Source: Sycon ciliatum (taxonomy: Eukaryota > Porifera > Calcarea > Leucosolenida > Sycettidae). From it: 64,000 nucleotides of DNA. The notes below the pieces were generated by a model. The model had not been told where the DNA came from. It worked only from the letters and a program-made list of their open reading frames with translations, and did not search any database. The stretch is from positions 16,807,518 to 16,871,517 of the forward strand of contig NC_088654.1 in assembly GCF_964019385.1 (NCBI RefSeq). Reading direction: 5' to 3'. Both the position numbers and the translations under genes were made by a program. Below, piece after piece: positions 1-54,945 of this stretch (position 1 is the stretch's first letter; each line of letters starts with the position of its first letter).

Positions 1-1427
1 TCTCTTCGCGGCGCGGCGCCTGTCATTTATCGTCTAGTCTTCAGGCGTGCCTTTAGTTTCGTCGCAGTTGCCCCTCGCATCGTTGTTCCTCCTCGACTGT
101 TGTGCGCGCTATTTTGCCCAGCGCCGTGGCCCGCCCGGGCCTCAGTCCCATTGCTACCATCCTCTACCGTTCTGTATTACCGTCTCCAGTCACTAACCGG
201 TCTCTATCGCTATCTCATCCATCCTCTTCCCCCTTAGGACTATTTTCCAATTTCAATCGATTATTTCAATCTAGATCCTATAGTTTTCCTACCCGCCATG
301 TCTCGTCCTGCTCCTATTTTCGCCCGGACATTAATTCCGCCGGTATTTGCCGGACAAGGTTCTGCAGTATTTTCTCCACACGGAAGCGTTCACGCACCCG
401 ATTTCCCGTCCTATCTATTTTTTCCCCTTCCTCCACGCGGACGCCCACGGGGAACTTCTACCTGAAGATGTTATCTTTCAATGGCCTGCACCTCTAACCC
501 TGTCCCCTGCCTACTGACGCTAAAGTCGGTGTCCCCCCCCCCCCCCATGGCTATTTTCGCCCGTTCTTTCTTTTTGGCCCCAGCTTGCCTATTGCCCACT
601 GGTTGCCATCTTTGTATCCCCGTAGGCCAAGCAGTTATCATGTTTCTGTGCTGGTGTATATTATTCCCTGGCCTACTATCACCAGGCTCCCTGCAGTGTC
701 CCGTTTTAGGTTTTTTCTTCTTCTTGTTTCTGGATATTTAGTTTCCCTACTCTCTGTCTCGGCAGCGTGCGCTTCTCTTCCTACTCCGATCGGTGTACTG
801 TTCGGGGTAGGCAATGTTTGTGCGTGATGATTATTCTTTGGCTTTCTTTCTGCGTGTCAGCTGTGCTGGCATTGTCATTCCAGCACTGTGATGTTTCTTG
901 ACAGTCGTGTTGCAGTGATCTTCACATCGATTAGTAATTTTCGTTCGGTTTGGCCGTATTGTATTCTCTGTAGGCTAGCTGCTGGCCTTCCCATGTGTAT
1001 ATTTTCTCTGGAGCATTCCTTGCCCAGAACTGCAGGAGCTTGGGATGACAGTTGGGATGATCTGTGATTGCGTATCTGCTCGGGTAACGCATCGCAGTTA
1101 TCACACCGAATACGGTACTGTTGTTCCGCTTTGTCTTGTCTGTGCGTGCGTGCGGGGAGTAGTACCTGTGTATGGCTGTGTGTGTGTATGTGTGGTGTGT
1201 GTGCGTGTGTGTGTGCCGCCGTCCATCTGTGTGGACATCCGATGGCGACAGTGACATACTGCGTGTCCACTTTCTTCCCGTGGAACTCCATCACCACATC
1301 AGCACTCTCAGGATGATAGTGAAAAATTGCCTCGGAAAAACGGTGAAACACACACGCACGCACGCACAAACCACACACACACACGTACGTGCACGTGCAG
1401 AGCGAACGGGACGCAGTAGGGTGTAAT
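1..1427. other. Unassigned sequence, no gene supported
   Basis: The first 0.85 kb is pyrimidine-rich on the plus strand, and its open frames have Ser/Pro/Leu-rich translations with no recognisable domain. A TG/GT-rich stretch lies near 1,141-1,215 and a CA-rich stretch near 1,350-1,400. No splice structure or repeat copy elsewhere in the window was recognised. Confidence 0.4.
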
Positions 1428-1488
1428 CAAGAGTGCATAACCATAGGTTGCCTGATGATCGTAGTAATACGTGAAACTCAGTTGTAAC

Positions 1489-1526
1489 CAGGGAGTCGTA
1501 AAACACCGGTATTTTACGACTCCCTG
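1489..1526. mobile_element. Foldback mini-element B (CAGGGAGT type), 38 bp
   Basis: Nearly perfect hairpin: CAGGGAGTCGTAAAA pairs with TTTTACGACTCCCTG around a CCGG centre. It is flanked by GTTGTAAC on both sides (1,481-1,488 and 1,527-1,534), an exact 8-bp duplication. The element is essentially only its two terminal repeats. Confidence 0.8.
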
Positions 1527-1575
1527 GTTGTAACAAAGCTTCCAAACTCTCTCTTGTGTAACCATTGGTTATGTA

Positions 1576-1613
1576 CAGGGAGTCGTAAAATACCGGTATT
1601 TTACGACTCCCTG
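1576..1613. mobile_element. Foldback mini-element C (CAGGGAGT type), 38 bp
   Basis: Perfect hairpin one base different from the copy at 1,489, flanked by exact 8-bp duplications GTTATGTA (1,568-1,575 and 1,614-1,621). The target lies inside the right terminal repeat of the enclosing element 1,428-1,626, so this insertion is the younger of the two. Confidence 0.8.
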
Positions 1614-1928
1614 GTTATGTACTCTTGGTGTAATGTACTGTTAGGTCACTCAACATCATGGCAACACAGTCCTCACTGTGACTCCAAAAAGTGCTCAGAT
1701 CATACCAGCTGGATTTGCTGGGGACGATTTTCACAGCTCAGTTGTTTTTCACAAGGAACAGAACATACTTGCCAATTTTCTGTTTTAGGTAAACAGTTTC
1801 CTTGACACCGATGAGGTTTTTCCTTGATCTTATAGTCATCATGTTCGCAAATCAGTCTGCAGCATGTGCGGCGAAACGTATCGGTACTTGTCCAAGCGCT
1901 AGCCTCAAGCGTTCTTGCTCGCTAGCAC

Positions 1929-2110
1929 CAAGAGTACATAAACCAAAAATGTACCAAGAGTACATGAACCAGGAGTGTTCTCTTGCTGATACCAAGAGTA
2001 CATAAACCAAAAGTGTACTCTTGCTAATACCAAGAGTACATAAACACTGTTTATGCACTCTTGCTAATACCAATAGCAAGAGGGTTATGTACTCTTGCTA
2101 TTAGTACGGT
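1929..2110. mobile_element. Chain of CAAGAG mini-elements sharing target duplications
   Basis: Head-to-tail chain of 25-32-bp hairpins starting CAAGAGTACATAAAC. The two clearest are 1,993-2,022, between GCTGATAC and GCTAATAC (7/8), and 2,031-2,062, between two exact GCTAATAC copies (2,023-2,030 and 2,063-2,070). Degenerate members lie at 1,929-1,984 and 2,071-2,105. Successive elements share the intervening 8-mer, so they inserted at each other's target duplications or amplified as a unit. Confidence 0.7.
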
Positions 2111-2359
2111 AATTGAGCTAGAGCTTCGTTGGGAACTTGGGGTCCAGCGTTGCGAGTGTTAAAACTTTTTTTAACACTGAAAGACATCAAAGAAGAGGTA
2201 CTGCCAGACGAACACTTTTCTGCTCCCCTCAGCTCACCACCACCGCGTACCGGGCACCGTTGAACCCCCACCACCACCGGTCACCATGATCACCACCACC
2301 GCTCATCATGGTCACGTCGTGAGTCAAGTAAGTATCGCGGCGCATAAGGGGCCGTCCGG

Positions 2360-2639
2360 GGTTACCGATTGTTTTTACAAAATGAAAACGTTTGTCTCTT
2401 TCCCTCAAACCAGTTAAAATGAAAAGTTTTAGTATTTTTCAGCCCCACCCACCCACCCATCTTTTCTGCAGGTAAAACGAATTCCAATAAAATATTGATG
2501 TCAATTTTCGACACCCAGAAGTAACTGGACATTCTCCATCTGCATTCAATAATTATTTTCAAAACGAAACTCCATCAAACCCACCCACCGGTGCACCCCC
2601 AAACGAAAACATTTCGTTTTGAAAATATGATTGGTAACC
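2360..2639. mobile_element. MITE with GGTTACC termini
   Basis: About 280 bp with imperfect terminal inverted repeats of about 35 bp starting GGTTACC. The left copy continues into AT-rich ACAAAATGAAAACG, and the right copy is its inverse at 2,600-2,639. No clear target duplication was seen. No ORF. Confidence 0.5.
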
Positions 2640-3333
2640 TACATGTAACTAATTAGTTGTTTGCGCCTTGCACAACATTTCTCAGCCCAGTTTTCGCAGG
2701 CTGCGCTGCACTACGGCGGTGTCACGACTGTTAGCGGACAACCTGTTGGACGAACGACAGTTCGTCGAAACCTGTTCGACGACAACCCCGTTCGCCGGCA
2801 GCCTTTTTCGCCGTCTGACATTTTGGCCGACAACCTTGTTCTTTTCGTCGACTCCCTCCTTGCGGCGCTGCCGCCGGCAGCGCGACTTGAGTGACTCGAT
2901 CGCATTTTCAGTGAGCTGTGGCTTTCCTCTTCAGCTTTCAATGCAGGACCTTCTTCGGAGTCAGTCCCGTTCTGACTTCAGCATAGCCTTGGCGGAAGTA
3001 ACATACTAAGTAGTTGGCCTTGGAAACCATGCAAACTGTAGACTATGAGTATGAGTTTAGTTGGTCTGTTTCACAACATGAAGTGCTCGCTTTGACGACG
3101 CCCTGATTATGTGGTCACGTGAGCAGTTGTTGAGAGATTTCAGGTGATGGATGCTGCCAACCTGGTCGCTACTCACAGTCTGTACTGGGTTACTCTTGGC
3201 GGCCGCAGAGGCAGCACAAGTATTCTTCACCGACTCATCATTGAGAACTGTTACTTGTGTTGCCCCAGTGTTTCTACAACTGTTTAGAACTGCACAACAC
3301 TGTGCAACTGTTGTTATTGTTGTAGGATACTAC
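2640..3333. other. Unassigned; degenerate GTTCG/CGACAACC repeats
   Basis: Positions 2,720-2,850 contain loosely repeated short motifs of the type gttcg...cgacaacc. Open frames across it have no domain character. Nothing else was recognised. Confidence 0.3.
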
Positions 3334-3360
3334 CAAGAGTACGGGGGGTTATGTACTCTT
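3334..3360. mobile_element. Foldback mini-element (CAAGAG type), 27 bp
   Basis: CAAGAGTAC and GTACTCTT arms around a short G-rich centre. The left flank is GATACTAC (3,326-3,333). The right flank is interrupted by the 250-bp element at 3,366-3,615, but removing that element and one copy of its duplication leaves an exact GATACTAC on the right. The two insertions are therefore ordered in time. Confidence 0.7.
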
Positions 3361-3365
3361 GATAC

Positions 3366-3615
3366 CAGGGAGTAATACAATATACAGAAGCCTTGCTTGG
3401 TAGTTTAACATGTTTTTCGATTTTGACAGCATGTTACAAGGCGAGGACGCGTAGTGCTCCTGACTACAACCATAACCCGGTTGGCAGAGTCCCGGTCTTG
3501 CCAAGACCGGGACTCTGCCAACCGGGTTATGGTTGTAGTCAGGAGCACTACGCGTCCTCGCCTTGTAACATGCTGTCAAAATCGAAATACAATAATATTA
3601 TTGTACTACTCTCTG
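3366..3615. mobile_element. 250-bp foldback element (CAGGGAGT type) carrying a perfect palindrome
   Basis: Termini CAGGGAGTAATACAAT and ATTGTACTACTCTCTG are inverted copies. Both flanks are CTTGATAC (3,358-3,365 and 3,616-3,623), an exact 8-bp duplication. The interior 3,415-3,587 is a palindrome with two 86-bp arms and a 1-bp centre at 3,501. A diverged single copy of the arm lies near 29,620-29,710. It interrupts the target duplication of the neighbouring 27-bp element. Confidence 0.75.
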
Positions 3616-3694
3616 CTTGATACTACCGGTAATGATATGTTGGCGTTTCGGCGGCCCCACACTGCCACAGGCACGGCTCGGTCGACGTTAGAGC

Positions 3695-3731
3695 CAGAGA
3701 GTAGTACAATACCATATTGTACTACTCCCTG
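3695..3731. mobile_element. Foldback mini-element (CAGAGAGT type), 37 bp
   Basis: Arms CAGAGAGTAGTACAATA and TATTGTACTACTCCCTG. Flanks GTTAGAGC (3,687-3,694) and GTTAAAAC (3,732-3,739) agree at 6 of 8 positions, fitting an older insertion. Confidence 0.6.
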
Positions 3732-3881
3732 GTTAAAACCTCAGTGAAACTGAATGACCACGGACCGGTGTTCGTTGACAAAGGTCGGACCAGCCACCAA
3801 TTAAAAAGTTTCTCTTCTTCATATTTCCTGCTATGAACGGATACCGCCAACCATGCATCGACTAGGCGCCAGGCGCGAACT

Positions 3882-4907: not shown

Positions 4908-5108
4908 AACTGGTTTGAGGGAAAGAGACAAACGGGAAAAGTCTGAAGAAAAAATTGACTGTCACCACCAGGACTCGAACCAGGGACCCTCGCTTGTAGC
5001 CAGCGATGCTCTAACCACTGAGCTATGGTGTAGTCGTCATCCCAGCAGAGGCCGTTCAACGTTTTCTTCAGACTTCGTAACTCACACTTCCTGTGAATCC
5101 ACACAGGC
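4908..5108 (-). repeat. tRNA-like SINE-type unit, diverged first copy
   Basis: Same module as the tandem array that follows, but with several substitutions and no 3' spacer. It is bracketed by ATA/TAA runs at 4,889-4,905 and 5,109-5,145. On the minus strand it contains tRNA-like A-box (TAGCTCAGTGGTTAGAGC) and B-box (GGTTCGAGTCC) promoter elements. Confidence 0.65.
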
Positions 5109-5141
<33 letters not shown>

Positions 5142-5146
5142 TTAAT

Positions 5147-8100
5147 TAACTGGTTTGAGGGAAAGAGACAAACGGGAAAAGTCTGAAGAAAAAATCGACT
5201 GTCACCACCAGGACTCGAACCAGGGACCCTCGCTTGTAGCCAGCGATGCTCTAACCACTGAGCTATGGTGTAGTCGTCATCCCAGCAGAGACTGTTCAAC
5301 GTTTTCTTCAGACTTCGTAACTCACACTTCCTGTGAATCCACACAGGCGGGTGGGACGCAGCCCTCACTGTAACCCACACACTTCACGTACAAACTAGCA
5401 CGCGGGGAGCCCCAAGTCATAAAATATTAACTGGTTTGAGGGAAAGAGACAAACGGGAAAAGTCTGAAGAAAAAATCGACTGTCACCACCAGGACTCGAA
5501 CCAGGGACCCTCGCTTGTAGCCAGCGATGCTCTAACCACTGAGCTATGGTGTAGTCGTCATCCCAGCAGAGACTGTTCAACGTTTTCTTCAGACTTCGTA
5601 ACTCACACTTCCTGTGAATCCACACAGGCGGGTGGGACGCAGCCCTCACTGTAACCCACACACTTCACGTACAAACTAGCACGCGGGGAGCCCCAAGTCA
5701 TAAAATATTAACTGGTTTGAGGGAAAGAGACAAACGGGAAAAGTCTGAAGAAAAAATCGACTGTCACCACCAGGACTCGAACCAGGGACCCTCGCTTGTA
5801 GCCAGCGATGCTCTAACCACTGAGCTATGGTGTAGTCGTCATCCCAGCAGAGACTGTTCAACGTTTTCTTCAGACTTCGTAACTCACACTTCCTGTGAAT
5901 CCACACAGGCGGGTGGGACGCAGCCCTCACTGTAACCCACACACTTCACGTACAAACTAGCACGCGGGGAGCCCCAAGTCATAAAATATTAACTGGTTTG
6001 AGGGAAAGAGACAAACGGGAAAAGTCTGAAGAAAAAATCGACTGTCACCACCAGGACTCGAACCAGGGACCCTCGCTTGTAGCCAGCGATGCTCTAACCA
6101 CTGAGCTATGGTGTAGTCGTCATCCCAGCAGAGACTGTTCAACGTTTTCTTCAGACTTCGTAACTCACACTTCCTGTGAATCCACACAGGCGGGTGGGAC
6201 GCAGCCCTCACTGTAACCCACACACTTCACGTACAAACTAGCACGCGGGGAGCCCCAAGTCATAAAATATTAACTGGTTTGAGGGAAAGAGACAAACGGG
6301 AAAAGTCTGAAGAAAAAATCGACTGTCACCACCAGGACTCGAACCAGGGACCCTCGCTTGTAGCCAGCGATGCTCTAACCACTGAGCTATGGTGTAGTCG
6401 TCATCCCAGCAGAGACTGTTCAACGTTTTCTTCAGACTTCGTAACTCACACTTCCTGTGAATCCACACAGGCGGGTGGGACGCAGCCCTCACTGTAACCC
6501 ACACACTTCACGTACAAACTAGCACGCGGGGAGCCCCAAGTCATAAAATATTAACTGGTTTGAGGGAAAGAGACAAACGGGAAAAGTCTGAAGAAAAAAT
6601 CGACTGTCACCACCAGGACTCGAACCAGGGACCCTCGCTTGTAGCCAGCGATGCTCTAACCACTGAGCTATGGTGTAGTCGTCATCCCAGCAGAGACTGT
6701 TCAACGTTTTCTTCAGACTTCGTAACTCACACTTCCTGTGAATCCACACAGGCGGGTGGGACGCAGCCCTCACTGTAACCCACTCACTTCACGTACAAAC
6801 TAGCACGCGGGGAGCCCCAAGTCATAAAATATTAACTGGTTTGAGGGAAAGAGACAAACGGGAAAAGTCTGAAGAAAAAATCGACTGTCACCACCAGGAC
6901 TCGAACCAGGGACCCTCGCTTGTAGCCAGCGATGCTCTAACCACTGAGCTATGGTGTAGTCGTCATCCCAGCAGAGACTGTTCAACGTTTTCTTCAGACT
7001 TCGTAACTCACACTTCCTGTGAATCCACACAGGCGGGTGGGACGCAGCCCTCACTGTAACCCACACACTTCACGTACAAACTAGCACGCGGGGAGCCCCA
7101 AGTCATAAAATATTAACTGGTTTGAGGGAAAGAGACAAACGGGAAAAGTCTGAAGAAAAAATCGACTGTCACCACCAGGACTCGAACCAGGGACCCTCGC
7201 TTGTAGCCAGCGATGCTCTAACCACTGAGCTATGGTGTAGTCGTCATCCCAGCAGAGACTGTTCAACGTTTTCTTCAGACTTCGTAACTCACACTTCCTG
7301 TGAATCCACACAGGCGGGTGGGACGCAGCCCTCACTGTAACCCACACACTTCACGTACAAACTAGCACGCGGGGAGCCCCAAGTCATAAAATATTAACTG
7401 GTTTGAGGGAAAGAGACAAACGGGAAAAGTCTGAAGAAAAAATCGACTGTCACCACCAGGACTCGAACCAGGGACCCTCGCTTGTAGCCAGCGATGCTCT
7501 AACCACTGAGCTATGGTGTAGTCGTCATCCCAGCAGAGACTGTTCAACGTTTTCTTCAGACTTCGTAACTCACACTTCCTGTGAATCCACACAGGCGGGT
7601 GGGACGCAGCCCTCACTGTAACCCACACACTTCACGTACAAACTAGCACGCGGGGAGCCCCAAGTCATAAAATATTAACTGGTTTGAGGGAAAGAGACAA
7701 ACGGGAAAAGTCTGAAGAAAAATCGACTGTCACCACCAGGACTCGAACCAGGGACCCTCGCTTGTAGCCAGCGATGCTCTAACCACTGAGCTATGGTGTA
7801 GTCGTCATCCCAGCAGAGACTGTTCAACGTTTTCTTCAGACTTCGTAACTCACACTTCCTGTGAATCCACACAGGCGGGTGGGACGCAGCCCTCACTGTA
7901 ACCCACACACTTCACGTACAAACTAGCACGCGGGGAGCCCCAAGTCATAAAATATTAACTGGTTTGAGGGAAAGAGACAAACGGGAAAAGTCTGAAGAAA
8001 AAATCGACTGTCACCACCAGGACTCGAACCAGGGACCCTCGCTTGTAGCCAGCGATGCTCTAACCACTGAGCTATGGTGTAGTCGTCATCCCAGCAGAGA

Positions 8101-8178
8101 CTGTTCAACGTTTTCTTCAGACTTCGTAACTCACACTTCCTGTGAATCCACACAGGCGGGTGGGACGCAGCCCTCACT
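5147..8178 (-). repeat. Tandem array of eleven 281-bp units with a tRNA-like core
   Basis: Units begin TAACTGG at 5,147, 5,428, 5,709, 5,990, 6,271, 6,552, 6,833, 7,114, 7,395, 7,676 and 7,956; the last lacks the 3' spacer. Only a few substitutions and one 1-bp deletion separate them. Each carries a 72-nt tRNA-like sequence on the minus strand (first unit 5,201-5,272). The core is bracketed by a 14-bp inverted repeat, AAGTCTGAAGAAAA / TTTTCTTCAGACTT. The array is flanked by ATA/TAA runs. Such homogeneity implies recent amplification, or an assembly effect. Confidence 0.85.
5201..5272 (-). tRNA. tRNA-like sequence (pseudo-tRNA), one per array unit
   Basis: Cloverleaf-like: D arm GCTC/GAGC, 5-bp anticodon stem TCGCT/AGCGA with loop GGCTACA (apparent anticodon CUA), T arm CCTGG-TTCGAGT-CCTGG with a T-T mismatch, and an acceptor stem with 5 of 7 pairs. 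The universal U33 is replaced by G and the acceptor end is mismatched, so this is a tRNA-derived SINE head rather than a working tRNA. Intact A and B boxes could still recruit RNA polymerase III. It recurs in every unit of the array. Confidence 0.5.
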
Positions 8179-8214
8179 GATAATAATAATAATAATAATT
8201 TATGTCATGTACTT

Positions 8215-16084: not shown

Positions 16085-17356
16085 TCAAACATGTTTATGT
16101 TTCAGATGGCTAGCCAGACATTTTGTCTTTTTCCACGCGATAAACGGCGCCTGGCCTAAAATTGTGTCAAGTTTATGCTTGGTCCATAGGGATCTTAGCA
16201 CCTTGTTGAGATCAGTGAGGCCAGGGTGGTATGGTAGTATAAGTGGAGGTGTGGTGTTAGTTTTGGTGTGAGCAGGTCGTCTACGGTGCGTAGAGGAGAG
16301 TGCAGCGCTGACTACAGATTTAGAGTAGCCACGTTCGATTAGTTTCGCAGCTAAAAAGGAACGGGTACCTAAAGATGTAGCTTCAGATGTAGATCCCCTG
16401 CCTGCTCGAATCATTTCACCAAGCGCCACCGCCTTCCAGGTATGGTGGGGGTGGGAAGATCTTGGGGAGATGTATTGAAATTTGTTAGTTTGTTTAAAAT
16501 TAATTTTAGATTCAATTGCGTTGTCTAGGATGCTGAGTTTAAGATCTAACATAATAATCTCTACCTTACTTGTTTCGTATGTGAATTTGACAGGGCAATT
16601 GGTTTGAATGGGTTCGTCGGTAATTTGTTTGATTCGTTCCTCAACAGTGACGGCGAAAAGGTCGTCAATGTATCTCTTTGCCAGAAGAGAGGAGGCGAAG
16701 AAAGTTGTAAGGTGATACCGTTCCATTCGAAACATAAAGATATTAGCGTAAGCGACAGCTGCGGGGCTGCCCATCGCTGTACCCTGGAGTTGGTGGTAAG
16801 TAGAGTCATTGAAAGTGAAGTAGTTATTCATAAGAATAATTCTCATGATTTTTATTACAGCCACTCTCCATGTACCTGGGACATCCTGCTGGCGGAGGTG
16901 CCACGCAAGTGCCTGGAGGCCATGGACGTGTTTAATAGATGTATAGAGGGAAACCACATCCATAGTCATGAGTACGGAGTTATGCGTTAGGGGCAGGTTC
17001 CGTGTACTTGTAAGGAGATCAGTAGAGTTGATGAGTGTGGATGGGTGTTTAAGTATTGTAGGCCAGAGGGTGAAGTGGATGAAGAGGGCCCAGTAATACG
17101 TAGGTGATAGAATGGATGATACGATGGGGCGTATCTTAAGTGGATTTTTGTGAAGTTTCGGGAGTCCGTAAAAATTTGGAATACGGGTTCCGGGCGTCCG
17201 GAGTTGTTTGGTAAGGCGTTTATGTAAGTCGTCCTCAATAGGGAGTAAAGCTTCTTCAAAGGCTGGTTGGGTGTCATGGATGGAAACAACGGTTTCGTAC
17301 GTGTCTTTGTTTAGAAGGTGGTCTAGACAAAGGGATTTATACTTGGCCGCTGTCAT
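16085..17356 (-). CDS. PLE 1 left arm, reverse transcriptase part
   Basis: A 423-residue frame with the Penelope-type RT: a KLHKNP block near residue 69, DVVSLYTSI near 134, QGTAMGSP near 193, the catalytic YIDDLF near 234, then the thumb and a C-terminal block ending SHLKHKHV. The upstream N-terminal domain (17,873-17,385, containing LSLGLKFVP) is separated by a 1-bp insertion at about 17,390 relative to the right arm. The protein ends before any GIY-YIG endonuclease. A continuous product would need the frame to be corrected. Confidence 0.8.
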   Translation of the reverse strand: MTAAKYKSLCLDHLLNKDTYETVVSIHDTQPAFEEALLPIEDDLHKRLTKQLRTPGTRIPNFYGLPKLHKNPLKIRPIVSSILSPTYYWALFIHFTLWPTILKHPSTLINSTDLLTSTRNLPLTHNSVLMTMDVVSLYTSIKHVHGLQALAWHLRQQDVPGTWRVAVIKIMRIILMNNYFTFNDSTYHQLQGTAMGSPAAVAYANIFMFRMERYHLTTFFASSLLAKRYIDDLFAVTVEERIKQITDEPIQTNCPVKFTYETSKVEIIMLDLKLSILDNAIESKINFKQTNKFQYISPRSSHPHHTWKAVALGEMIRAGRGSTSEATSLGTRSFLAAKLIERGYSKSVVSAALSSTHRRRPAHTKTNTTPPLILPYHPGLTDLNKVLRSLWTKHKLDTILGQAPFIAWKKTKCLASHLKHKHV

Positions 17357-17384
17357 GACGACAGTGGTGGAACCTTTGTCAGCT

Positions 17385-17873
17385 CTACATTATTATGAGA
17401 TCGGAGTTACGGAGAGTATCCAGGGCTTCGAGTTCAGCTGGTGTGAGGTTCTTTTTAGTGGGTTTTGGTTTAAATTGTTGTATGGTAGTACCGATATCCA
17501 TACTAAACTCTATTAATTCGATAGGAATGGAGTTTAGAGGTGGTGTCCAGTTTGATCGGGCAAAAATTCTAGAATATTGGTTCCTGGTACTTGGCTGGCC
17601 CAAGAAGAATGCATGGACATGTAAGTTGCGCAGGAATCTGGGGACATTGTCGACCCAAGATGTGTGTGGGAGGGTGTTAGTTCTGGGAACGAATTTTAAA
17701 CCGAGACTTAAGATGTCTTTGGCAGTATCAGAGATGTCTATGTCCCCGATCATCGTTACCAGTGTTGTGTTCTTAGATTCGTTAAATATAAGTTCAGCTG
17801 CTCGTTTTTTAAGTCTTTTCCTGTTCCGGCGGCGTTTCGATTTTTTAGCCGTATTCTTGGAGTCAGTTGGTTG
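17385..17873 (-). pseudogene. PLE 1 left arm, linker and N-terminal RT domain, frameshifted
   Basis: Directly follows the UGA of ORF1 in the same frame. It starts with a strongly basic stretch (KKSKRRRNRKRLKKR) that could serve nuclear import or nucleic-acid binding, then the conserved PLE N-terminal block with LSLGLKFVP. An extra base near 17,390 truncates it just before the RADKG motif seen in the right arm. Confidence 0.7.
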
Positions 17874-18788
17874 TCACGAACGTGGCGGAGGAGGAAAATA
17901 GGTGGGCTGGCGCCTCTGTTGTGGGTATGGTGTTGGCCTAGTTACCTGTCTAGGTATGAAGTGTTGTGGTGGCAGCATAGGGCCGATGAATCGGGGCGGC
18001 CCTCGAGGTTTGTAAGGTTGGACACGAGGGGGTTGATAGTATCTAAGAGGTTGCGGCGGGCCCATTAGGTGAGGTGGTCCCCGGGCTCTCGGAGGGTTAA
18101 CAACATGCTGGGGCCGAATTATTTGTGGCTGTTGTTGGTAGGGGGTTCTTTGTTGTGTTGTATTACGTTGGCCGGTGGCATGAGTTCTAGGTGGTTTATC
18201 AAACGTAGGCTGGATTTGTACAAAGTTTTGCCTAGGTCTGGAGACATGTTGATTTTGTCTTCGAGGTGGGGCCTGTGGAGGTGGTCGGGCAATAAGGGGC
18301 TGAGTTTGTTTACCCATTTGTTGCTGGGGTTTTAGTGGTTTTGCTTTATCAGAGAGTGCTAGAATGTGTTTAGCGAGGCTCGGGCGGTGAATGAGCGGTG
18401 TATCGCTCATTTTTTCGCAGATAACGGAATCTATGGCTCTAGGTAGGTCCGTGATAGCTGTAGATAGCGTTTTACGTGCCTCCTGGAAAAGGTCCTGGTG
18501 ACGGGCAAGTTCGATTTCGAGCACTTTTAAGTTAGTGTCGGCAGCGATTTGCGCTAGTTTTTCATCTGAGGGGTCATGGCCAGTTTTACGTGGTTTGTAT
18601 CTAAGGGCATTGTGAGGGGTTTTGGAGCTATGGCGTACCTGTTCATCAAGAAGGTTGGTGCCTGCTATCTGTAGGTTGGCCTTATGGTCACGTAGTTTCT
18701 TTAGAATTGGCCAGAAGAGATTTTGGTATTTTCTCCAGACTCTCCAGACTGTGTCAGTAGGGAGGAAGGTATCTGTGTCTTGTATCAT
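17874..18788 (-). CDS. PLE 1 left arm, ORF1
   Basis: 304 residues. The N-terminal half is helical and charged with coiled-coil character around residues 85-170 (LKVLEIELARHQDLFQEARK). The C-terminal half is Pro/Gln/Arg-rich with repeated PPR and RGPP motifs, typical of RNA-binding low-complexity tails. It ends at a UGA in frame with the RT domain. Function unproven; a nucleic-acid chaperone or RNP protein is the likely role. Mirror copy at 18,942-19,856. Confidence 0.6.
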   Translation of the reverse strand: MIQDTDTFLPTDTVWRVWRKYQNLFWPILKKLRDHKANLQIAGTNLLDEQVRHSSKTPHNALRYKPRKTGHDPSDEKLAQIAADTNLKVLEIELARHQDLFQEARKTLSTAITDLPRAIDSVICEKMSDTPLIHRPSLAKHILALSDKAKPLKPQQQMGKQTQPLIARPPPQAPPRRQNQHVSRPRQNFVQIQPTFDKPPRTHATGQRNTTQQRTPYQQQPQIIRPQHVVNPPRARGPPHLMGPPQPLRYYQPPRVQPYKPRGPPRFIGPMLPPQHFIPRQVTRPTPYPQQRRQPTYFPPPPRS

Positions 18789-18941
18789 ACCAGGAGCGAT
18801 TTCAAGTGGTGGGGGCTCGTCTGGGGCTAAATCGGGCTGCTAGCATTCATACACACATGCCTCGTCACCACATGTGTGTATGAATGCTAGCAGCCCGATT
18901 TAGCCCCAGACGAGCCCCCACCACTTGAAATCGCTCCTGGT

Positions 18942-19856
18942 ATGATACAAGACACAGATACCTTCCTCCCTACTGACACAGTCTGGAGAGTCTGGAGAAA
19001 ATACCAAAATCTCTTCTGGCCAATTCTAAAGAAACTACGTGACCATAAGGCCAACCTACAGATAGCAGGCACCAACCTTCTTGATGAACAGGTACGCCAT
19101 AGCTCCAAAACCCCTCACAATGCCCTTAGATACAAACCACGTAAAACTGGCCATGACCCCTCAGATGAAAAACTAGCGCAAATCGCTGCCGACACTAACT
19201 TAAAAGTGCTCGAAATCGAACTTGCCCGTCACCAGGACCTTTTCCAGGAAGCACGTAAAACGCTATCTACAGCTATCACGGACCTACCTAGAGCCATAGA
19301 TTCCGTTATCTGCGAAAAAATGAGCGATACACCGCTCATTCACCGCCCGAGCCTCGCTAAACACATTCTAGCACTCTCTGATAAAGCAAAACCACTAAAA
19401 CCCCAGCAACAAATGGGTAAACAAACTCAGCCCCTAATTGCCCGACCACCTCCACAGGCCCCACCTCGAAGACAAAATCAACATGTCTCCAGACCTAGGC
19501 AAAACTTTGTACAAATCCAGCCTACGTTTGATAAACCACCTAGAACTCATGCCACCGGCCAACGTAATACAACACAACAAAGAACCCCCTACCAACAACA
19601 GCCACAAATAATTCGGCCCCAGCATGTTGTTAACCCTTCGAGAGCCCGGGGACCACCTCACCTAATGGGCCCGCCGCAACCTCTTAGATACTATCAACCC
19701 CCTCGTGTCCAACCTTACAAACCTCGAGGGCCGCCCCGATTCATCGGCCCTATGCTGCCACCACAACACTTCATACCTAGACAGGTAACTAGGCCAACAC
19801 CATACCCACAACAGAGGCGCCAGCCCACCTATTTTCCTCCTCCGCCACGTTCGTGA
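18942..19856 (+). CDS. PLE 1 right arm, ORF1
   Basis: 304 residues, differing from the left-arm copy at very few positions (for example VVNPS instead of VVNPP). Charged helical N-terminal half, then a Pro/Gln/Arg-rich tail. The stop TGA at 19,854-19,856 is followed, without leaving the frame, by the basic linker and RT N-terminal domain, so ORF1 and RT are separated only by this codon. The stop is shared by both arms, so it predates the duplication. Stop-codon readthrough is possible but unproven. Confidence 0.6.
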   Translation: MIQDTDTFLPTDTVWRVWRKYQNLFWPILKKLRDHKANLQIAGTNLLDEQVRHSSKTPHNALRYKPRKTGHDPSDEKLAQIAADTNLKVLEIELARHQDLFQEARKTLSTAITDLPRAIDSVICEKMSDTPLIHRPSLAKHILALSDKAKPLKPQQQMGKQTQPLIARPPPQAPPRRQNQHVSRPRQNFVQIQPTFDKPPRTHATGQRNTTQQRTPYQQQPQIIRPQHVVNPSRARGPPHLMGPPQPLRYYQPPRVQPYKPRGPPRFIGPMLPPQHFIPRQVTRPTPYPQQRRQPTYFPPPPRS

Positions 19857-20744
19857 CAACCAACTGACTCCAAGAATACGGCTAAAAAATCGAAACGCCG
19901 CCGGAACAGGAAAAGACTTAAAAAACGAGCAGCTGAACTTATATTTAACGAATCTAAGAACACAACACTGGTAACGATGATCGGGGACATAGACATCTCT
20001 GATACTGCCAAAGACATCTTAAGTCTCGGTTTAAAATTCGTTCCCAGAACTAACACCCTCCCACACACATCTTGGGTCGACAATGTCCCCAGATTCCTGC
20101 GCAACTTACATGTCCATGCATTCTTCTTGGGCCAGCCAAGTACCAGGAACCAATATTCTAGAATTTTTGCCCGATCAAACTGGACACCACCTCTAAACTC
20201 CATTCCTATCGAATTAATAGAGTTTAGTATGGATATCGGTACTACCATACAACAATTTAAACCAAAACCCACTAAAAAGAACCTCACACCAGCTGAACTT
20301 GAAGCCCTGGATACTCTCCGTAACTCCGATCTCATAATATGTAGAGCTGACAAAGGTTCCACCACTGTCGTCATGACAACGGCCAAGTATAAATCCCTTT
20401 GTCTAGACCACCTTCTAAACAAAGACACGTACGAAACCGTTGTTTCCATCCCTGACGCCCAACCAGCCTTTGAAGAAGCTTTACTCCCTATTGAGGACGA
20501 CTTACATAAACGCCTTACCAAACAACTCCGGACGCCCGGAACCCGCGTATTCCAAATTTTTACGGACTCCCGAAACTTCACAAAAATCCACTTAAGATAC
20601 GCCCCATCGTATCATCCATTCTATCACATACGTATTACTGGGCCCTCTTCATCCACTTCACCCTCTGGCCTACAATACTTAAACACCCATCCACACTCAT
20701 CAACTCTACTGATCTCCTTACAAGTACACGGAACCTGCCCCTAA
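19857..20744 (+). pseudogene. PLE 1 right arm, N-terminal RT domain, frameshifted at about 20,546
   Basis: Continues in frame from the ORF1 stop: basic linker, LSLGLKFVP block, the PLE-typical RADKGSTTVV motif and a Tyr/Lys-rich segment. Two extra bases at about 20,544-20,549 (cccgcgtatt versus cccgtatt in the left arm) shift the frame just before the KLHKNP block. The left arm is intact here but broken at about 17,390, so each arm carries a different lesion. Confidence 0.75.
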
Positions 20745-20761
20745 CGCATAACTCCGTACTC

Positions 20762-21646
20762 ATGACTATGGATGTGGTTTCCCTCTATACATCTATTAAA
20801 CACGTCCATGGCCTCCAGGCACTTGCGTGGCACCTCCGCCAGCAGGATGTCCCAGGTACATGGAGAGTGGCTGTAATAAAAATCATGAGAATTATTCTTA
20901 TGAATAACTACTTCACTTTCAATGACTCTACTTACCACCAACTCCAGGGTACAGCGATGGGCAGCCCCGCAGCTGTCGCTTACGCTAATATCTTTATGTT
21001 TCGAATGGAACGGTATCACCTTACAACTTTCTTCGCCTCCTCTCTTCTGGCAAAGAGATACATTGACGACCTTTTCGCCGTCACTGTTGAGGAACGAATC
21101 AAACAAATTACCGACGAACCCATTCAAACCAATTGCCCTGTCAAATTCACATACGAAACAAGTAAGGTAGAGATTATTATGTTAGATCTTAAACTCAGCA
21201 TCCTAGACAACGCAATTGAATCTAAAATTAATTTTAAACAAACTAACAAATTTCAATACATCTCCCCAAGATCTTCCCACCCCCACCATACCTGGAAGGC
21301 GGTGGCGCTTGGTGAAATGATTCGAGCAGGCAGGGGATCTACATCTGAAGCTACATCTTTAGGTACCCGTTCCTTTTTAGCTGCAAAACTAATCGAACGT
21401 GGCTACTCTAAATCTGTAGTCAGCGCTGCACTCTCCTCTAAGCACCGTAGACGACCTGCTCACACCAAAACTAACACCACACCTCCACTTATACTACCAT
21501 ACCACCCTGGCCTCACTGATCTCAACAAGGTGCTAAGATCCCTATGGACCAAGCATAAACTTGACACAATTTTAGGCCAGGCGCCGTTTATCGCGTGGAA
21601 AAAGACAAAATGTCTGGCTAGCCATCTGAAACATAAACATGTTTGA
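20762..21646 (+). CDS. PLE 1 right arm, reverse transcriptase catalytic part
   Basis: 294 residues beginning at the DVVSLYTSI motif, with QGTAMGSP, ANIFMF, the catalytic YIDDLF (about 21,055-21,075) and the conserved PLE C-terminal block ending SHLKHKHV. The start shown is only the first ATG after the frameshift; natively this is one protein with the upstream RT domain. No GIY-YIG motif occurs before the stop or in the 350 bp after it, as in endonuclease-lacking PLE lineages such as Athena/Coprina. Confidence 0.8.
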   Translation: MTMDVVSLYTSIKHVHGLQALAWHLRQQDVPGTWRVAVIKIMRIILMNNYFTFNDSTYHQLQGTAMGSPAAVAYANIFMFRMERYHLTTFFASSLLAKRYIDDLFAVTVEERIKQITDEPIQTNCPVKFTYETSKVEIIMLDLKLSILDNAIESKINFKQTNKFQYISPRSSHPHHTWKAVALGEMIRAGRGSTSEATSLGTRSFLAAKLIERGYSKSVVSAALSSKHRRRPAHTKTNTTPPLILPYHPGLTDLNKVLRSLWTKHKLDTILGQAPFIAWKKTKCLASHLKHKHV

Positions 21647-22523: not shown

Positions 22524-22847
22524 GCAGTAGACAGCTTTGCTGAGTGGTCAACAGTGACACAAGAAATGCTGTTAATTCACAGGTGTCAATTGGTGTCCGA
22601 CGATACTTTTAAAACTACAAAGCTGCCTACGACACGGACAGCGTGCCGCAAGGGTTCCAAACTGTGGAAAGTTCCACGCCCATCTTTTGATAAGCAAGTC
22701 AGCCCCTGCATGTTCACATCCATAATGATGTGGTGTCCCAACATGAAGTAGCCTACTTTGAACTACACATACATTTTATCATGCCACTGACCGTCACTAC
22801 CTGTTACTGCTACACATGATACATGCAACCTATGTCTTCAGTCCCAC
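21979..22847. other. PLE 1 right tail remnant, CA microsatellite, unassigned
   Basis: Right after the palindrome, gccgccctaccgccgatctg resembles the PLE 2 tail terminus, so the right PLE copy extends to about 22,015 while the left is shorter. A (CA)n run lies at 22,499-22,523. No gene. Confidence 0.4.
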
Positions 22848-23204
22848 CAAGAGTGCATAACTCCCAAGAGTGCATAACCCCCAAGAGTGCATAACCCCCA
22901 AGAGTGCATAACCCCCAAGAGTGCATAACCCCCAAGAGTGTGCAGCTGCCTGCACAACCTCTATGCTGCGCTGCGACGGCAGAACTTCACATCACGTGAC
23001 ATGGTTCAAAAGGTTACGCTGGCAAACAGTGCAAAGTGACCACAAGAGAGCTGAGACCAAAGCTGGGTTGCGGACAACCCTGTATCAATCATGCACAGAG
23101 TGCAACTAATGTGTACGGGTTCATCACGTGATGTGAAATTCTGCCGTCGCAGACCCCATAGCTGGAGTTGCACACTCTTGGGGGGGGGGGGGTTATGTAC
23201 TCTT
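22848..23204. mobile_element. Large foldback element of the CAAGAG family, 357 bp
   Basis: Left end CAAGAGTGCATAAC, right end GTTATGTACTCTT; flanks AGTCCCAC (22,840-22,847) and GGTCCCAC (23,205-23,212) agree at 7 of 8. The left end is amplified as about five direct repeats of an 18-bp CCAAGAGTGCATAACCCC unit (22,848-22,941). Inner arms around CTGCGACGGCAGAACTTCAC (left) are mirrored at 23,120-23,155. Longest member of the family in this window; no transposase. Confidence 0.7.
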
Positions 23205-23909
23205 GGTCCCACTGGCTTGTCTTCATCGCTCTCAACCGCCTTGAAACTGAATTGTAAGGAAAGACAGCATCTTGTTTTGTTGTGATTGCATTCAGAACGC
23301 ACTTGCGTCGATCCCCAAAGTGAGTAGATGTACCTGGGATAAGTGGGATATTCGGACCCGCATACTCGGGTGTTACCGTACCGCCTCATAGCAATTCCTT
23401 CTGCTTTGCAGGCGGGGTTGATATTCGAGAGGTATCACCCTCGTACTTGCGTAATATTCTCTACTTATGGTTGGAATACCATTGCGATGGATAGATGCGA
23501 TTCGGCACGAAGTGAAGGCAGCGGATCTCTTCGTGGAGAGCACTCTCCAAGCTGCAGGAGATAGGCTAACTTGGCTCGACACTGTTGACAGATGCGTCGA
23601 CCCTGCTTCTGTCTAACAGGTTCAGGGAAGATGCGAGCAGTGTGTATTATTATGGTTGGAAGATCAGTGAAAAAACGATAAAGGACCGTACTGAGCAGGT
23701 GTATGTCTTAACCCGGGTACGCACTAAGTGAGTTCCACTGTACTTTAGAATACAGGCGACTACTTATACCAACGCATATGGCCGATTGGTTTGCAGGCCT
23801 GCCTGCGAATCATGAGGTCCCGAGTTCAAGACCTGCGCTGGTAGCAGGGAGCGTGTGAAAAGACTTTATACGCGTGTTGAACTGCGTCGACACCCACGGT
23901 CAACTGGGT
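23205..23909. other. Unassigned sequence
   Basis: Frames are short and lack domain features. Nothing was recognised apart from the flanking elements. Confidence 0.3.
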
Positions 23910-25094: not shown

Positions 25095-25780
25095 GACGGA
25101 TAACCGGCGGTGTCGAGCCAGCTAACGTTTCAAACGAGCCGCGCGACAGTAGTAAGCAGCGGAAGTCGAGAACACACCTGTATCATCCATATTCAACCGA
25201 CATACAGTGTGCTTGCTGGTGGGGCGGCACGAACAACTAATTACTTCCTTTGCTGCAGAAGCTCTGCTATCATTCTTTTGGCCTACACTACAGGCTCAGC
25301 GCACCCTGCCTGAGGCTTGACCAGAGTCAGCCGAAATACAAGCGTTGCATGGGATGTCCAGTCTTCTCAGTACTACAGTAGGTTCCAAAGAAGACTGCCG
25401 TGGCATGGCCATATGTGGCTGTACAAGACCTCCATCATTGTCGTGATGTCCATTCTCCGAACCGCCAGAACCGCCACAAGTAGTCGTCGGTCGACCCTCA
25501 CGCAAGTCAAGTTAGTTCTTCTCTTTCTGTCGTTCTGTCGTTGGACGAATATTTCCGACGGGATGCACGTTCGCCAACATCCATTTCCCATCCACACGGA
25601 CCCTGTGGTTGTCATTTTCCAACCTGGTGGCAGCTGCCGAGGTTCGCTGCAGGACAAGTGAGCTGGACTCGTCGGCACGTCGAAAGCGGAGGTGAGCGGC
25701 TTCGCAAAGACAAACTACACATTATACCTGTTCTCATTATTGTCGACGATGTGCATGTCGTTCGCTGATACGGTCACCAC
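25095..25780. other. Unassigned sequence
   Basis: Overlapping short frames on both strands without domain features. Nothing else recognised. Confidence 0.3.
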
Positions 25781-25820
25781 CGGAGAGTCGTGTTGTGTGA
25801 AAGCCCTTCACGACTCTCTG
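25781..25820. mobile_element. Foldback mini-element (CGGAGAGT type), 40 bp
   Basis: Arms GGAGAGTCGTG and CACGACTCTC. Flanks GTCACCAC (25,773-25,780) and GTCATCAC (25,821-25,828), 7 of 8. Its right duplication is shared with the next mini-element. Confidence 0.65.
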
Positions 25821-25828
25821 GTCATCAC

Positions 25829-25858
25829 CAGGGAGTCGTAGAAAGATACGACTCCCTG
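25829..25858. mobile_element. Foldback mini-element (CAGGGAGT type), 30 bp
   Basis: CAGGGAGTCGTA and TACGACTCCCTG arms with a 6-nt centre, flanked by exact GTCATCAC copies (25,821-25,828 and 25,859-25,866). It sits immediately next to the 40-bp element, using that element's target duplication as its own target. Confidence 0.8.
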
Positions 25859-26169
25859 GTCATCACCATCATCGACATCATGGCAACACGCCAACAGACC
25901 AGTGGCACAGCGCTAGTAGTAAACATATTCTTCTAAATGTAGTAGAGTGCTGCGTGTGGAATCCAACCGCGTGAATCAAGTAAGTAACGCGCCCTGCACC
26001 TCCAACCAGCTCCCGGGATCCGCAGGTCTTGGGCAGCACAGCACCCAGCGCGGCATTCGCTTGATCAGTAGTACAATCATGACTGTAGTGTAGTACTAGT
26101 AGTAGTGCCTGCATCAATTTTGGGAAAACCACAATACAGAGAATGCCAAAACCATTAGCCTGATTAGGC

Positions 26170-26820: not shown

Positions 26821-28818
<1,998 letters not shown>

Positions 28819-30786: not shown

Positions 30787-31357
30787 AAGGCCTTTAAACA
30801 CTGTGTACTAATACTAGGGATGCATCAGGGGAGTGGATTTAAAATCAGTCCACACCAAGGAATGCAATACAGTCATGTAGATCTACATGTACATGTAGAT
30901 GTGTGCAGAGCTCGGATATCATATGTAGCGATTGAGACTCCCTCGATTTAGGCTCAGGCCTGTGGAGAGTTCATAAAATGCAAATTCAAGTTTCTTGTCG
31001 ATTGAAGAAACCTTTACAAAGCCTTATGATAGTACAAGCCCTGGTCTTGAAATTAGGGACTGAGAAAAGGGCTAAGCAGGTCATTCACAACAATTCCACC
31101 AGGGTTCAGCTTCTCAGGGGAGACAAAAGCAATTCACCGAGCAAGCGCTCCTGCGTTGCGTGCGTGCGTAAAGGGACAAAACCTGAAATATGCTACCGTT
31201 CGACGAGCACACCTGTCACGTCCCAGAAAGCCTGCCGACACCATCCATTCGACATAGGGCTTCGCCGTGTCGTGATCAATACTCAAAGCGCGAGTTCCAA
31301 TGTCGGGAGTAAGCGAATTTCTGAACCGGCAGATGTCCACTTGGACATTGATAGCAT
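30787..31357. other. Unassigned sequence
   Basis: Includes an ACATGTAGATCTACATGTAC palindromic cluster near 30,878-30,900. No gene recognised. Confidence 0.3.
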
Positions 31358-31398
31358 CAAGAGTACAATAACCATGGTTTTGTAGAATGTGTACTCTT
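31358..31398. mobile_element. Foldback mini-element (CAAGAG type), 41 bp
   Basis: CAAGAGTAC and GTACTCTT ends with a longer non-paired centre containing ccatgg. Flanks GATAGCAT (31,350-31,357) and GACAGCAT (31,399-31,406), 7 of 8. Confidence 0.65.
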
Positions 31399-32016
31399 GA
31401 CAGCATTTTAGAAGCGTTGTGCAGCGTTTCCTGGACCTGCATCGGCATTACTTGGGTTAGTGACACCGAGTGGCAGTGTGCACTGGTCTGTCCTGTTTAA
31501 CCATGTGTAAGGTGGCGATGCGGCTTCTCGAGGACGAACCGGGCAGCACTGGACACGACCTAATCAAAGTGTCGGAAGTAGTTTGTCGCTGCCACGGCTT
31601 TCACTTCAGCCTGTAGCCGGACAACGAAGCATGTCGTGACGATTGAGTTCTGCGTTCCATGGCCTTTTCGACCTCCAGATTTCCTGTTTTCTCGCGCGAG
31701 CCTGAGATTAAAATTATTTTGTCTTGGGCCACATTTTACCATCGACACTCTTGGTAACACCGTCATGGTAATACATGTACTAGTATTGGTGATATTTCTC
31801 CCACTCGGCAACAGATGTGGTAACGGGAACGGCAGCGATTTTATCATCGCTACTCTACCCTGATACAACAAACAGCACCGCCGCACCAAAACGGACTCAG
31901 CGCAGCTGCAAGCCAAGACTACGGACAGTGGCCGCACCGCGCTTCAATGCCGGAACTTGATTATGTGATTATCCGACAATCTCTATGGAGTATGGAGCGA
32001 GATCCGGCAACCTTGC
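31399..32016. other. Unassigned sequence upstream of a TATA box
   Basis: No gene recognised. Composition becomes GC-richer towards 32.0 kb. Confidence 0.3.
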
Positions 32017-54549: not shown

Positions 54550-54945
54550 CCGTAGACTCCCGCGGATACGCCCATGGGCTTATCCGTTTCACAAGGACAT
54601 TTCGGTGGGCTTATACAAGAACATGGGCTTATACGCGGGCATGGGCTTATACGCTGACACCAAAAGTGCGCATTGCAAAGGTACCAAGGAAGTGAGAAGT
54701 ACATTGCTGAAAACCACTGTGCATACAAAACAACCGATGATTGTGTTGAAATGTAAAAATATAATAAAAACTACATAAGTATGCTACGTATATGGTACGA
54801 CCAAGAGTCCATAGTTTATGGACTCTTTGTACGATTTAGGCCCATGGGCTTGTACGATGAAGCTTTGTGATGTTCGAACGTTCCCTGGTCTTTATGCGCG
54901 AGCATGTGCTTAAACGCGCGTGGGCTTATCCGCGTGATTCTACGG
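54550..54945. mobile_element. 396-bp MITE (CCGTAGACTCC) with internal tandem words
   Basis: Left CCGTAGACTCCCGCGGATAC and inverted right CCGTAGAATCACGCGGATAA, flanked by TATA on both sides. Interior repeats gggcttatacgcgggcat several times. A 26-bp foldback mini-element is nested at 54,802-54,827. Confidence 0.7.
54802..54827. mobile_element. Foldback mini-element (CAAGAG type), 26 bp
   Basis: CAAGAGTCCATA and TATGGACTCTT arms with a 3-nt centre; flanks GGTACGAC (54,794-54,801) and TGTACGAT (54,828-54,835), 6 of 8. Shortest family member here, nested in the 396-bp MITE. Confidence 0.6.

Follow-up and report, generated by a model that had tools for sequence, protein, structure and literature searches.

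Tiny foldback elements with hAT-type target duplications in the sponge Sycon ciliatum: two families and their possible origin as scars of collapsed insertions

A stretch of 64,000 nucleotides from the genome of the calcareous sponge Sycon ciliatum (contig NC_088654.1, positions 16,807,518 to 16,871,517; hereafter the window) carries very small foldback elements which are little more than two inverted repeats placed tip to tip. These joined-tip hairpins are real, abundant and unusual. They belong to two genome-wide families and not to a single one: family A (CARRGAGT..ACTCYYTG), which is flanked by 8-bp target duplications, and family B (CAAGAGT..ACTCTTG), which is flanked by 7-bp duplications. 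We give an even chance to the explanation that they are scars left when hAT-type insertions lost their interior and had their two tips fused. Some of the hairpins are possibly unusually small mobile elements.

Both patterns were searched in the whole genome (538 Mb, 313 contigs, the window lying at C13:16807518-16871517). Counts are given per strand, and reversed patterns served as controls. Family A patterns of 20-50 bp occur 6,891 times compared with 40 in the control, family B patterns of 19-49 bp 3,415 times compared with 33, and B patterns of 14-18 bp 358 times compared with 37. The genome-wide occurrence for which a preliminary description of the window had proposed this search is thereby confirmed.

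Target duplications, target motifs and empty sites

Flanks were compared in 291,726 bases (fetched loci, numbered with L, and the window), to which 40 short stretches were added. After removal of copies with identical 20-bp flanks, the comparison comprises 49 A-type and 51 B-type rows; a few are double readings of a single right end, and four of the B rows come from the units of a single satellite. The sample was selected by intact ends and covers the initial part of contig C1 together with the window. Expected matches were obtained by pairing the left and right flanks of different elements all-against-all.

Exact 8-bp duplications flank 18 of the 49 A rows, with 0.08 expected, and 27 rows match with at most one mismatch (0.31 expected). 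At 5, 6, 7, 9, 10 or 11 bp, only 0-1 A rows are exact. Family B shows exact 7-bp duplications in 22 of 51 rows (0.28 expected) and 32 rows with at most one mismatch (1.54 expected), while exact 8-bp duplications are found in none of the 51. When copies of one insertion are collapsed and elements longer than 50 bp are excluded, exact duplications remain at 16 of 47 sites in family A and at 19 of 44 in family B. The excess of matching 8-mers over controls, proposed as a check in the preliminary description, is thus seen in the sampled A rows; its single family with 8-bp duplications has to be replaced by two families with 8 bp (A) and 7 bp (B).

The duplicated sequences share a target motif. Among the exact duplications, T occupies position 2 in 14 of 18 A and in 19 of 22 B cases, and A is found at position 7 in 15 of 18 A cases and at the second-last position in 19 of 22 B cases. 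The two motifs, nTnnnnAn in A and the one base shorter nTnnnAn in B, point to hAT-type insertion. The terminal inverted repeats (TIRs) of hAT transposons such as hobo, Ac, Hermes and Tol2 start with CA, as do the termini of family A, a dinucleotide which the search pattern itself required. hAT elements and hAT miniature inverted-repeat transposable elements (MITEs) typically measure hundreds of base pairs. For Hermes, an excerpt of PMC10368747 gives an nTnnnnAn target preference and an 8-bp duplication. Family A resembles such transposons in its 8-bp duplication, nTnnnnAn target and CA..TG ends, and on these letters it appears to be of hAT type; it differs by its size, since the elements described here measure 14-50 bp, by its diverse centres, and because no gene with A or B ends was found in the 3′ flanks that were searched. 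The earlier proposal of real insertions with hAT-like ends agrees with the duplication excess, the motif and the termini.

Families of hAT transposons with 5- and 6-bp duplications are termed hAT5 and hAT6, and those with 7-bp duplications, described in 2025 from the rust fungi Puccinia and Melampsora, hAT7 (excerpt of PMC12730594). Family B shares the 7-bp duplication and the nTnnnAn motif with hAT7 and would be compatible with this group. However, hAT7 is known in rust fungi, whereas family B resides in an animal genome. Among open-licence PMC papers, no literature linking hAT7 with animals and MITEs was found. A hAT-like family with 7-bp duplications in an animal would take hAT7 beyond the rust fungi of that paper.

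To find empty sites, the joined, element-free flanks were matched to other places in the fetched sequence, and six comparisons were inspected; the sites compared are paralogous repeats and not alleles. A single copy of the duplication without the element is present in four of the six, three of them clean and one with 10 extra bp. The clean cases comprise two A sites with one 8-mer (L006 against L031, and L035:9229 against L004) and one B site with one 7-mer (L011:916 against L002). In the fourth case (L005 against L019), the empty site holds one copy and the filled site has 10 extra bases beside the right duplication. The divergence between L035:5591 and the window is too high to call, and in L021 against L003 both sites are filled. 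The preliminary description had expected a single duplication copy at empty sites, which was observed here at paralogous places.

The L005 site shows a further peculiarity. At L005:1501-1550, the A element is followed by 10 extra bases (CTAGTGCATG) and then by the right duplication copy (CTATGCAC). The extra bases contain an inverted piece of the duplication and are perhaps the scar of excision and reinsertion.

Shortest forms, junctions and larger relatives

The shortest B form has 14 bp, i.e. two abutting 7-bp tips without interior. Among the B patterns of 14-18 bp, one such 14-mer, CAAGAGTACTCTTG, makes up 28 of the first 50 in the list, where about two occurrences per genome are expected by chance for any one given 14-mer. 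With the target motif STNNNAS on both sides, it is found at 29 places (control 0). Letters were printed for 18 of these motif-flanked sites, and in 14 of them the 7-mers on both sides are identical, although some may represent one insertion which was copied (CTAGGAG occurs twice and GTTATAC three times). C4:10454883-10454931 shows the order duplication-14mer-duplication-14mer-duplication. Since the fetched sequence contains no B elements of 14-18 bp (nor A elements of 16-19 bp), the evidence on the 14-mer comes from genome pattern searches only.

The sampled centres are diverse. Of the 49 A rows, 38 have a sequence that occurs only once in the sample; in B this holds for 47 of 51. In A, 7 of 1,081 pairs of distinct sites are identical, corresponding to about 154 effective types; the values for B are 2 of 946 pairs and about 473 types. 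Helical periodicity of the lengths is not significant in B (p 0.17-0.21). In A, p is about 0.004-0.005 at 10.2-10.5 bp, but this value is produced by the 38-bp elements and is not claimed as a real signal.

For part of family B, the composition of the tips can be followed to the letter. Fifteen of 49 tiny B elements are exact joins of two arm prefixes from three mid-size B elements, and the arms of the L020 element alone account for 11; controls with shuffled centres give 0.11 and 0.01, respectively. At 14-18 bp, two arm types permit 12 different joins. The three joins in which the tips share a word of 2-4 bases make up 35 of the 50 listed sites, compared with four sites for the nine joins sharing 0-1 base, and 11 sites are neither. 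Because both tips have the same sequence, the junction word (at equal cut points) must be self-complementary, and GTAC as the shared word yields the 14-mer.

The L020 element itself (L020:6727-7006) is a 280-bp B element with an exact 7-bp duplication. Full-length places of this type number at least 41 at 98-100% identity (40 of 1,362 candidates scored), and two copies on C12 are separated by exactly 7 bp. As the element matches itself in inverted orientation over its whole length (76-78%), it is a long imperfect hairpin. Short and non-autonomous, with TIRs and many near-identical copies, the L020 type has the properties of a MITE. B ends with 15 exact bases on each side and a total length of 265-295 bp occur at 841 places (control 0; interiors uncompared). 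At 57-87 bp, B ends with 13 exact bases on each side are found at only 67 places (control 0), of which at least two are merged adjacent tiny elements (C1:3545726-3545794 and C1:9139288-9139358). Arms of 13 bases are present in 9 of 50 listed tiny B elements, which scales to about 600 of 3,415, an estimate based on the first 50 places of C1. The 57-87-bp places are therefore about ten times scarcer than the estimated tiny elements with the same arms. In the ranges counted (14-49, 57-87 and 265-295 bp), the B sizes look two-peaked, whole or tips. Length shows no significant difference with duplication quality (p 0.73 in A and 0.13 in B).

One candidate for a larger A parent was rejected. The 430-bp stretch L007:945-1374 consists of an A element of 37 bp into which a 390-bp element of another family has inserted. 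A count based on this stretch, in which 7 of 47 tiny A elements were 'explained', was dropped, and the recount without L007 gives 0 of 47. The insert has the ends AGGGACC..GGTCCCT and a 3-bp duplication (ATT). When 40 of 502 candidates were scored, its family was seen at no fewer than 39 further places at 88-93%. Four of them match starting from the A end; the pairing of an A element with this insert may recur.

Collapse, mobility and other origins

In the explanation that we favour, a transposon with the ends CAGGGAGT.. (A) or CAAGAGTAC.. (B) would insert and duplicate 8 or 7 bp of the target. Later, the interior would be lost and the two outermost tips, of about 7-20 nt each, would be joined, either bluntly or via a short self-complementary word present in both tips (GTAC in B). 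The end product would be duplication-tip-tip-duplication. Two routes are favoured: aborted repair of an excision gap, in which a few nucleotides would be copied on each side before the tails anneal, and bypass during replication, at the base of the long hairpin into which larger elements can fold. We infer the timing and the route of the loss, and that family A arose in the same way as B.

Internally deleted P, Ac/Ds and mariner elements arise by aborted gap repair, and nearly precise excision is known for Tn10. The hairpins resemble these cases in that the duplications and both ends are retained, the interior is gone and the junctions often lie at short matching words. They differ in extent, as thousands of sites have been stripped of nearly the whole interior, with as little as 7 bp remaining at each end, and B intermediates are few. 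Collapse fits better than tiny mobile units because the 14-bp B elements lack an interior, 841 larger relatives exist, intermediates are scarce and centres are diverse. Moreover, a transposase could hardly pair two ends within 14 bp. The preliminary description had treated the 26-40-bp units as transposons. Their insertion stands, but mobility of their own is less likely than collapse, though the numerous identical 38-bp A elements described below support it.

Several observations weigh against collapse. Sampling of the tiny elements was confined to the initial part of C1 and to the window, and the sample of 14-18-bp B elements (50 of 358) is wholly from C1. No larger A parent was found, and the 250-bp A element of the window (3366-3615) explains none of the 47 tiny A elements. 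Above 18 bp, the bias towards shared words is weak: among the 15 explained B elements, 11 share no base, two share one and two share two. The arm consensus leaves more than four bases unexplained in 21 of the 47 A elements and in 20 of the 49 B elements. From the effective types follows a mean of about 45 copies of each type for A and 7 for B, and a sequence met a single time among the sampled rows may therefore be multicopy; genome-wide copy number was counted for a few types only (the 26-mer and the 38-mer below, and the 14-mer via its share of listed sites). One 38-bp perfect palindrome is present in 435 identical copies. A 26-bp type with an asymmetric centre was counted at 22 places in the genome (control 0). 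Twelve of these are identical, as would be seen with amplified units, and one combines the arm subtypes AGAT and ACAT, as would result from a point mutation in a copied unit. Finally, since no A parent is established and A is less diverse, the case for mobility is stronger in family A.

According to this second explanation, which we hold to be possible but less probable than collapse, the hairpins are truly mobile cut-and-paste units of 26-38 bp, and two abutted terminal repeats suffice for a hAT transposase acting in trans. The 435 identical copies of the palindrome are in its favour, as are the five 38-bp perfect palindromes of the sample (two sequences), each of which has a different 8-bp duplication, exact in four cases. 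Identical copies of the 26-mer are spread over several contigs, and two sampled ones (L050 and L063) have different exact 7-bp duplications. Only about 150 effective A types stand for 6,891 places, and the 37-bp A element of L007 predates the insertion of another element into it. MITE-style amplification from a tiny master would suit the 435 identical 38-mers, yet the sampled centres are diverse, above all in B (about 470 effective types), whose series extends down to 14 bp. Furthermore, the 26-mer junction is present in both the AGAT and the ACAT subtype, which suggests repeated formation and is at any rate compatible with it. The ends required by characterized hAT transposons are long, with 200 and 150 bp for Tol2, about 100 bp for Tag1 and at least 200 bp for Ac (excerpt of PMC10368747), and the minimum for bacterial cut-and-paste elements in vivo is cited as 64-70 bp (excerpt of PMC3464196). 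That two abutted repeats of 10-19 bp could alone be transposed in trans, by hAT enzymes which need no subterminal DNA and work on a hairpin or on ends separated by a few helix turns, is possible but less likely than not. If abutted repeats do transpose, the 38- and 26-bp palindromes would be far below any transposon known to us, and the length requirements of Tol2, Ac and Tag1 would not hold for all hAT enzymes. No described transposon family of this small size was found in the titles and abstract openings of open-licence PMC literature.

The internal eliminated sequences (IESs) of Paramecium are a further parallel. They are bounded by TA, with a sharp minimum of 26 bp and a size periodicity of 10.2 bp (excerpt of PMC3464196). 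Like IESs, the hairpins would be transposon remnants of very small size, of which little more than the ends is left. However, elements of 14-20 bp with exact 7-bp duplications are at variance with an IES of the Paramecium type: sizes extend down to 14 bp and duplications measure 7-8 bp. The weak periodicity in A is confounded by the 38-mer.

An insertion of ends only, without a full-length stage, is improbable. Two precut ends held in one transposase complex would insert together, in a tagmentation-like manner, and the cell would join them. The anatomy would be the same as after collapse, and scarce intermediates, diverse junctions and exact duplications on tiny elements would all be accounted for. 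There is no direct sign of such a process, which requires frequent precut short ends, and the 841 larger places with the same ends suggest that insertion of whole elements is common.

Slow decay of old MITEs by random internal deletion, visible where the tips survive, is very improbable. The search patterns demand tips and some duplications have diverged, as this explanation would have it. On the other hand, B places of 57-87 bp are about tenfold too scarce relative to the tiny elements with the same arms, exact duplications persist at 16 of the 47 distinct A sites and at 19 of the 44 distinct B sites, and length does not differ significantly with duplication quality (the p values are given above). 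Chance palindromes or simple-sequence artefacts are refuted for the bulk of the elements by the controls (40, 33 and 37 against 6,891, 3,415 and 358), the duplication excess and the empty sites, and their probability is negligible even though one satellite has B-like ends without matching duplications. This satellite (L028:8683-8913) is composed of four units of about 62 bp which start with CAAGAGTCCCGGG and end with GGACTCTTG.

If the hairpins are scars of collapsed insertions, thousands of natural junctions in one genome would record the collapse of DNA transposons, many with the original duplication, and a MITE might vanish nearly to its tips in a single step. Under either collapse or mobility, repeat annotation which ignores elements below about 50 bp would miss thousands of insertion sites.

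Transposase genes and features of the window

Genes for hAT transposases are numerous: PF05699 scores were obtained for 150 of 422 candidates, some of which are multicopy with equal score. No transposase with A or B ends was found in the approximately 0.7-kb 3′ flanks of 20 hAT genes and in 401 bp of one more family. The 20 flanks contain a single B end and two loose look-alikes. The B end lies beside the hAT gene P0001 and was rejected as its terminus: it belongs to a nearby 52-bp B element with the duplication GTGATAT/GTGATAA, and 66 bp at the equivalent distance beside a second P0001 copy lack it. A transposase of about 670 residues is encoded at eight places with equal or near-equal score (including C6:262137, C8:32630706, C10:5125208 and C11:15979594) and was for this reason probably active recently; the 401 bp on the 3′ side of one of its copies contain no A or B end. 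In addition, a hAT transposase-like stretch with 65% identity to P0001 (C5:23750103-23751950) occupies part of a single 6,012-residue frame without interruption, which may be a fusion or may run through a repeat.

The scan of the window returned 13 rows, of which two are composites of neighbouring elements. This leaves 11 separate elements (Table 1) whose ends show no more than a single mismatch each, and whose duplication copies differ by one base at the most. As controls, 30 first-order Markov resamples gave a mean of 0.3 rows, and the reversed window gave none. Two further elements are damaged, one with an interrupted right duplication (3334-3361) and one with a 6/8 duplication (3695-3731). 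The total is thus 13, where the preliminary description had counted at least 14, and the presence of the hairpins is confirmed.

Table 1. Family A and B elements of the window; the span includes the target duplications.
Element	Family	Span	Size and remarks	Target duplication
1428-1627	B	1421..1634		7 bp, GTGTAAT at 1421-1427 and 1628-1634
1489-1526	A	1481..1534	38 bp	8 bp, GTTGTAAC on both sides
1576-1613	A	1568..1621	38 bp, perfect palindrome	8 bp, GTTATGTA
1993-2023	B	1986..2030		6/7 (CTGATAC/CTAATAC)
2031-2063	B	2024..2070		7 bp, exact, CTAATAC
3334-3361	B	3327..3361	28 bp	left copy ATACTAC
3366-3615	A	3358..3623	250 bp, mid-size	8 bp, exact, CTTGATAC
3695-3731	A	3687..3739	37 bp	6/8 (GTTAGAGC/GTTAAAAC)
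22848-23205	B	22841..23212	358 bp, mid-size	7 bp, exact, GTCCCAC
25781-25820	A	25773..25828	left end CGGAGAGT	7/8
25829-25858	A	25821..25866	30 bp	8 bp, exact, GTCATCAC
31358-31399	B	31351..31406	42 bp	6/7
54802-54828	B	54795..54835	27 bp, right end CTCTTT	6/7

The exact 8-bp duplications reported earlier at 1489, 1576, 3366 and 25829 hold as given, and so does the 7/8 match at 25781. For the CAAGAGT elements at 1428, 1993, 2031, 3334, 22848 and 31358, the duplications are really 7 bp, because the last G of the element itself had been taken as flank; with this correction of length, the supposed 7/8 match at 22848 becomes exact. The B element at 54802 was absent from the earlier list.

Some of the elements are nested or otherwise modified. 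The B element at 1428 contains two A elements, and its length without these and their duplications is 108 bp. The A element at 1576 has the sequence of the palindrome present 435 times in the genome. The right duplication copy of the B element at 3334 is split by the A element at 3366 and was read across this later insertion. The latter element holds an internal hairpin with arms of about 85 bp. At 22848, the left end of the B element carries a 17-bp tandem repeat of its own tip.

Other repeats are found elsewhere in the window. Twelve tRNA-like units at 4960-8081, labelled tRNA-Pyl (anticodon CTA) by ARAGORN, lie in or beside a tandem array (5145-8179) with a 281-bp unit and copies 99% alike. 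As the anticodon loop GGCTACA lacks U33, these units are probably a tRNA-derived repeat rather than functional tRNAs. Near-identical Penelope/reverse transcriptase-like copies, named as judged from translations, form an inverted pair at 16085-21646, with frames of 304 amino acids at 17874-18788 (minus strand) and 18942-19856 (plus strand). A TTG/CAA simple repeat of 1.7 kb, 98% regular, extends over 27098-28817.

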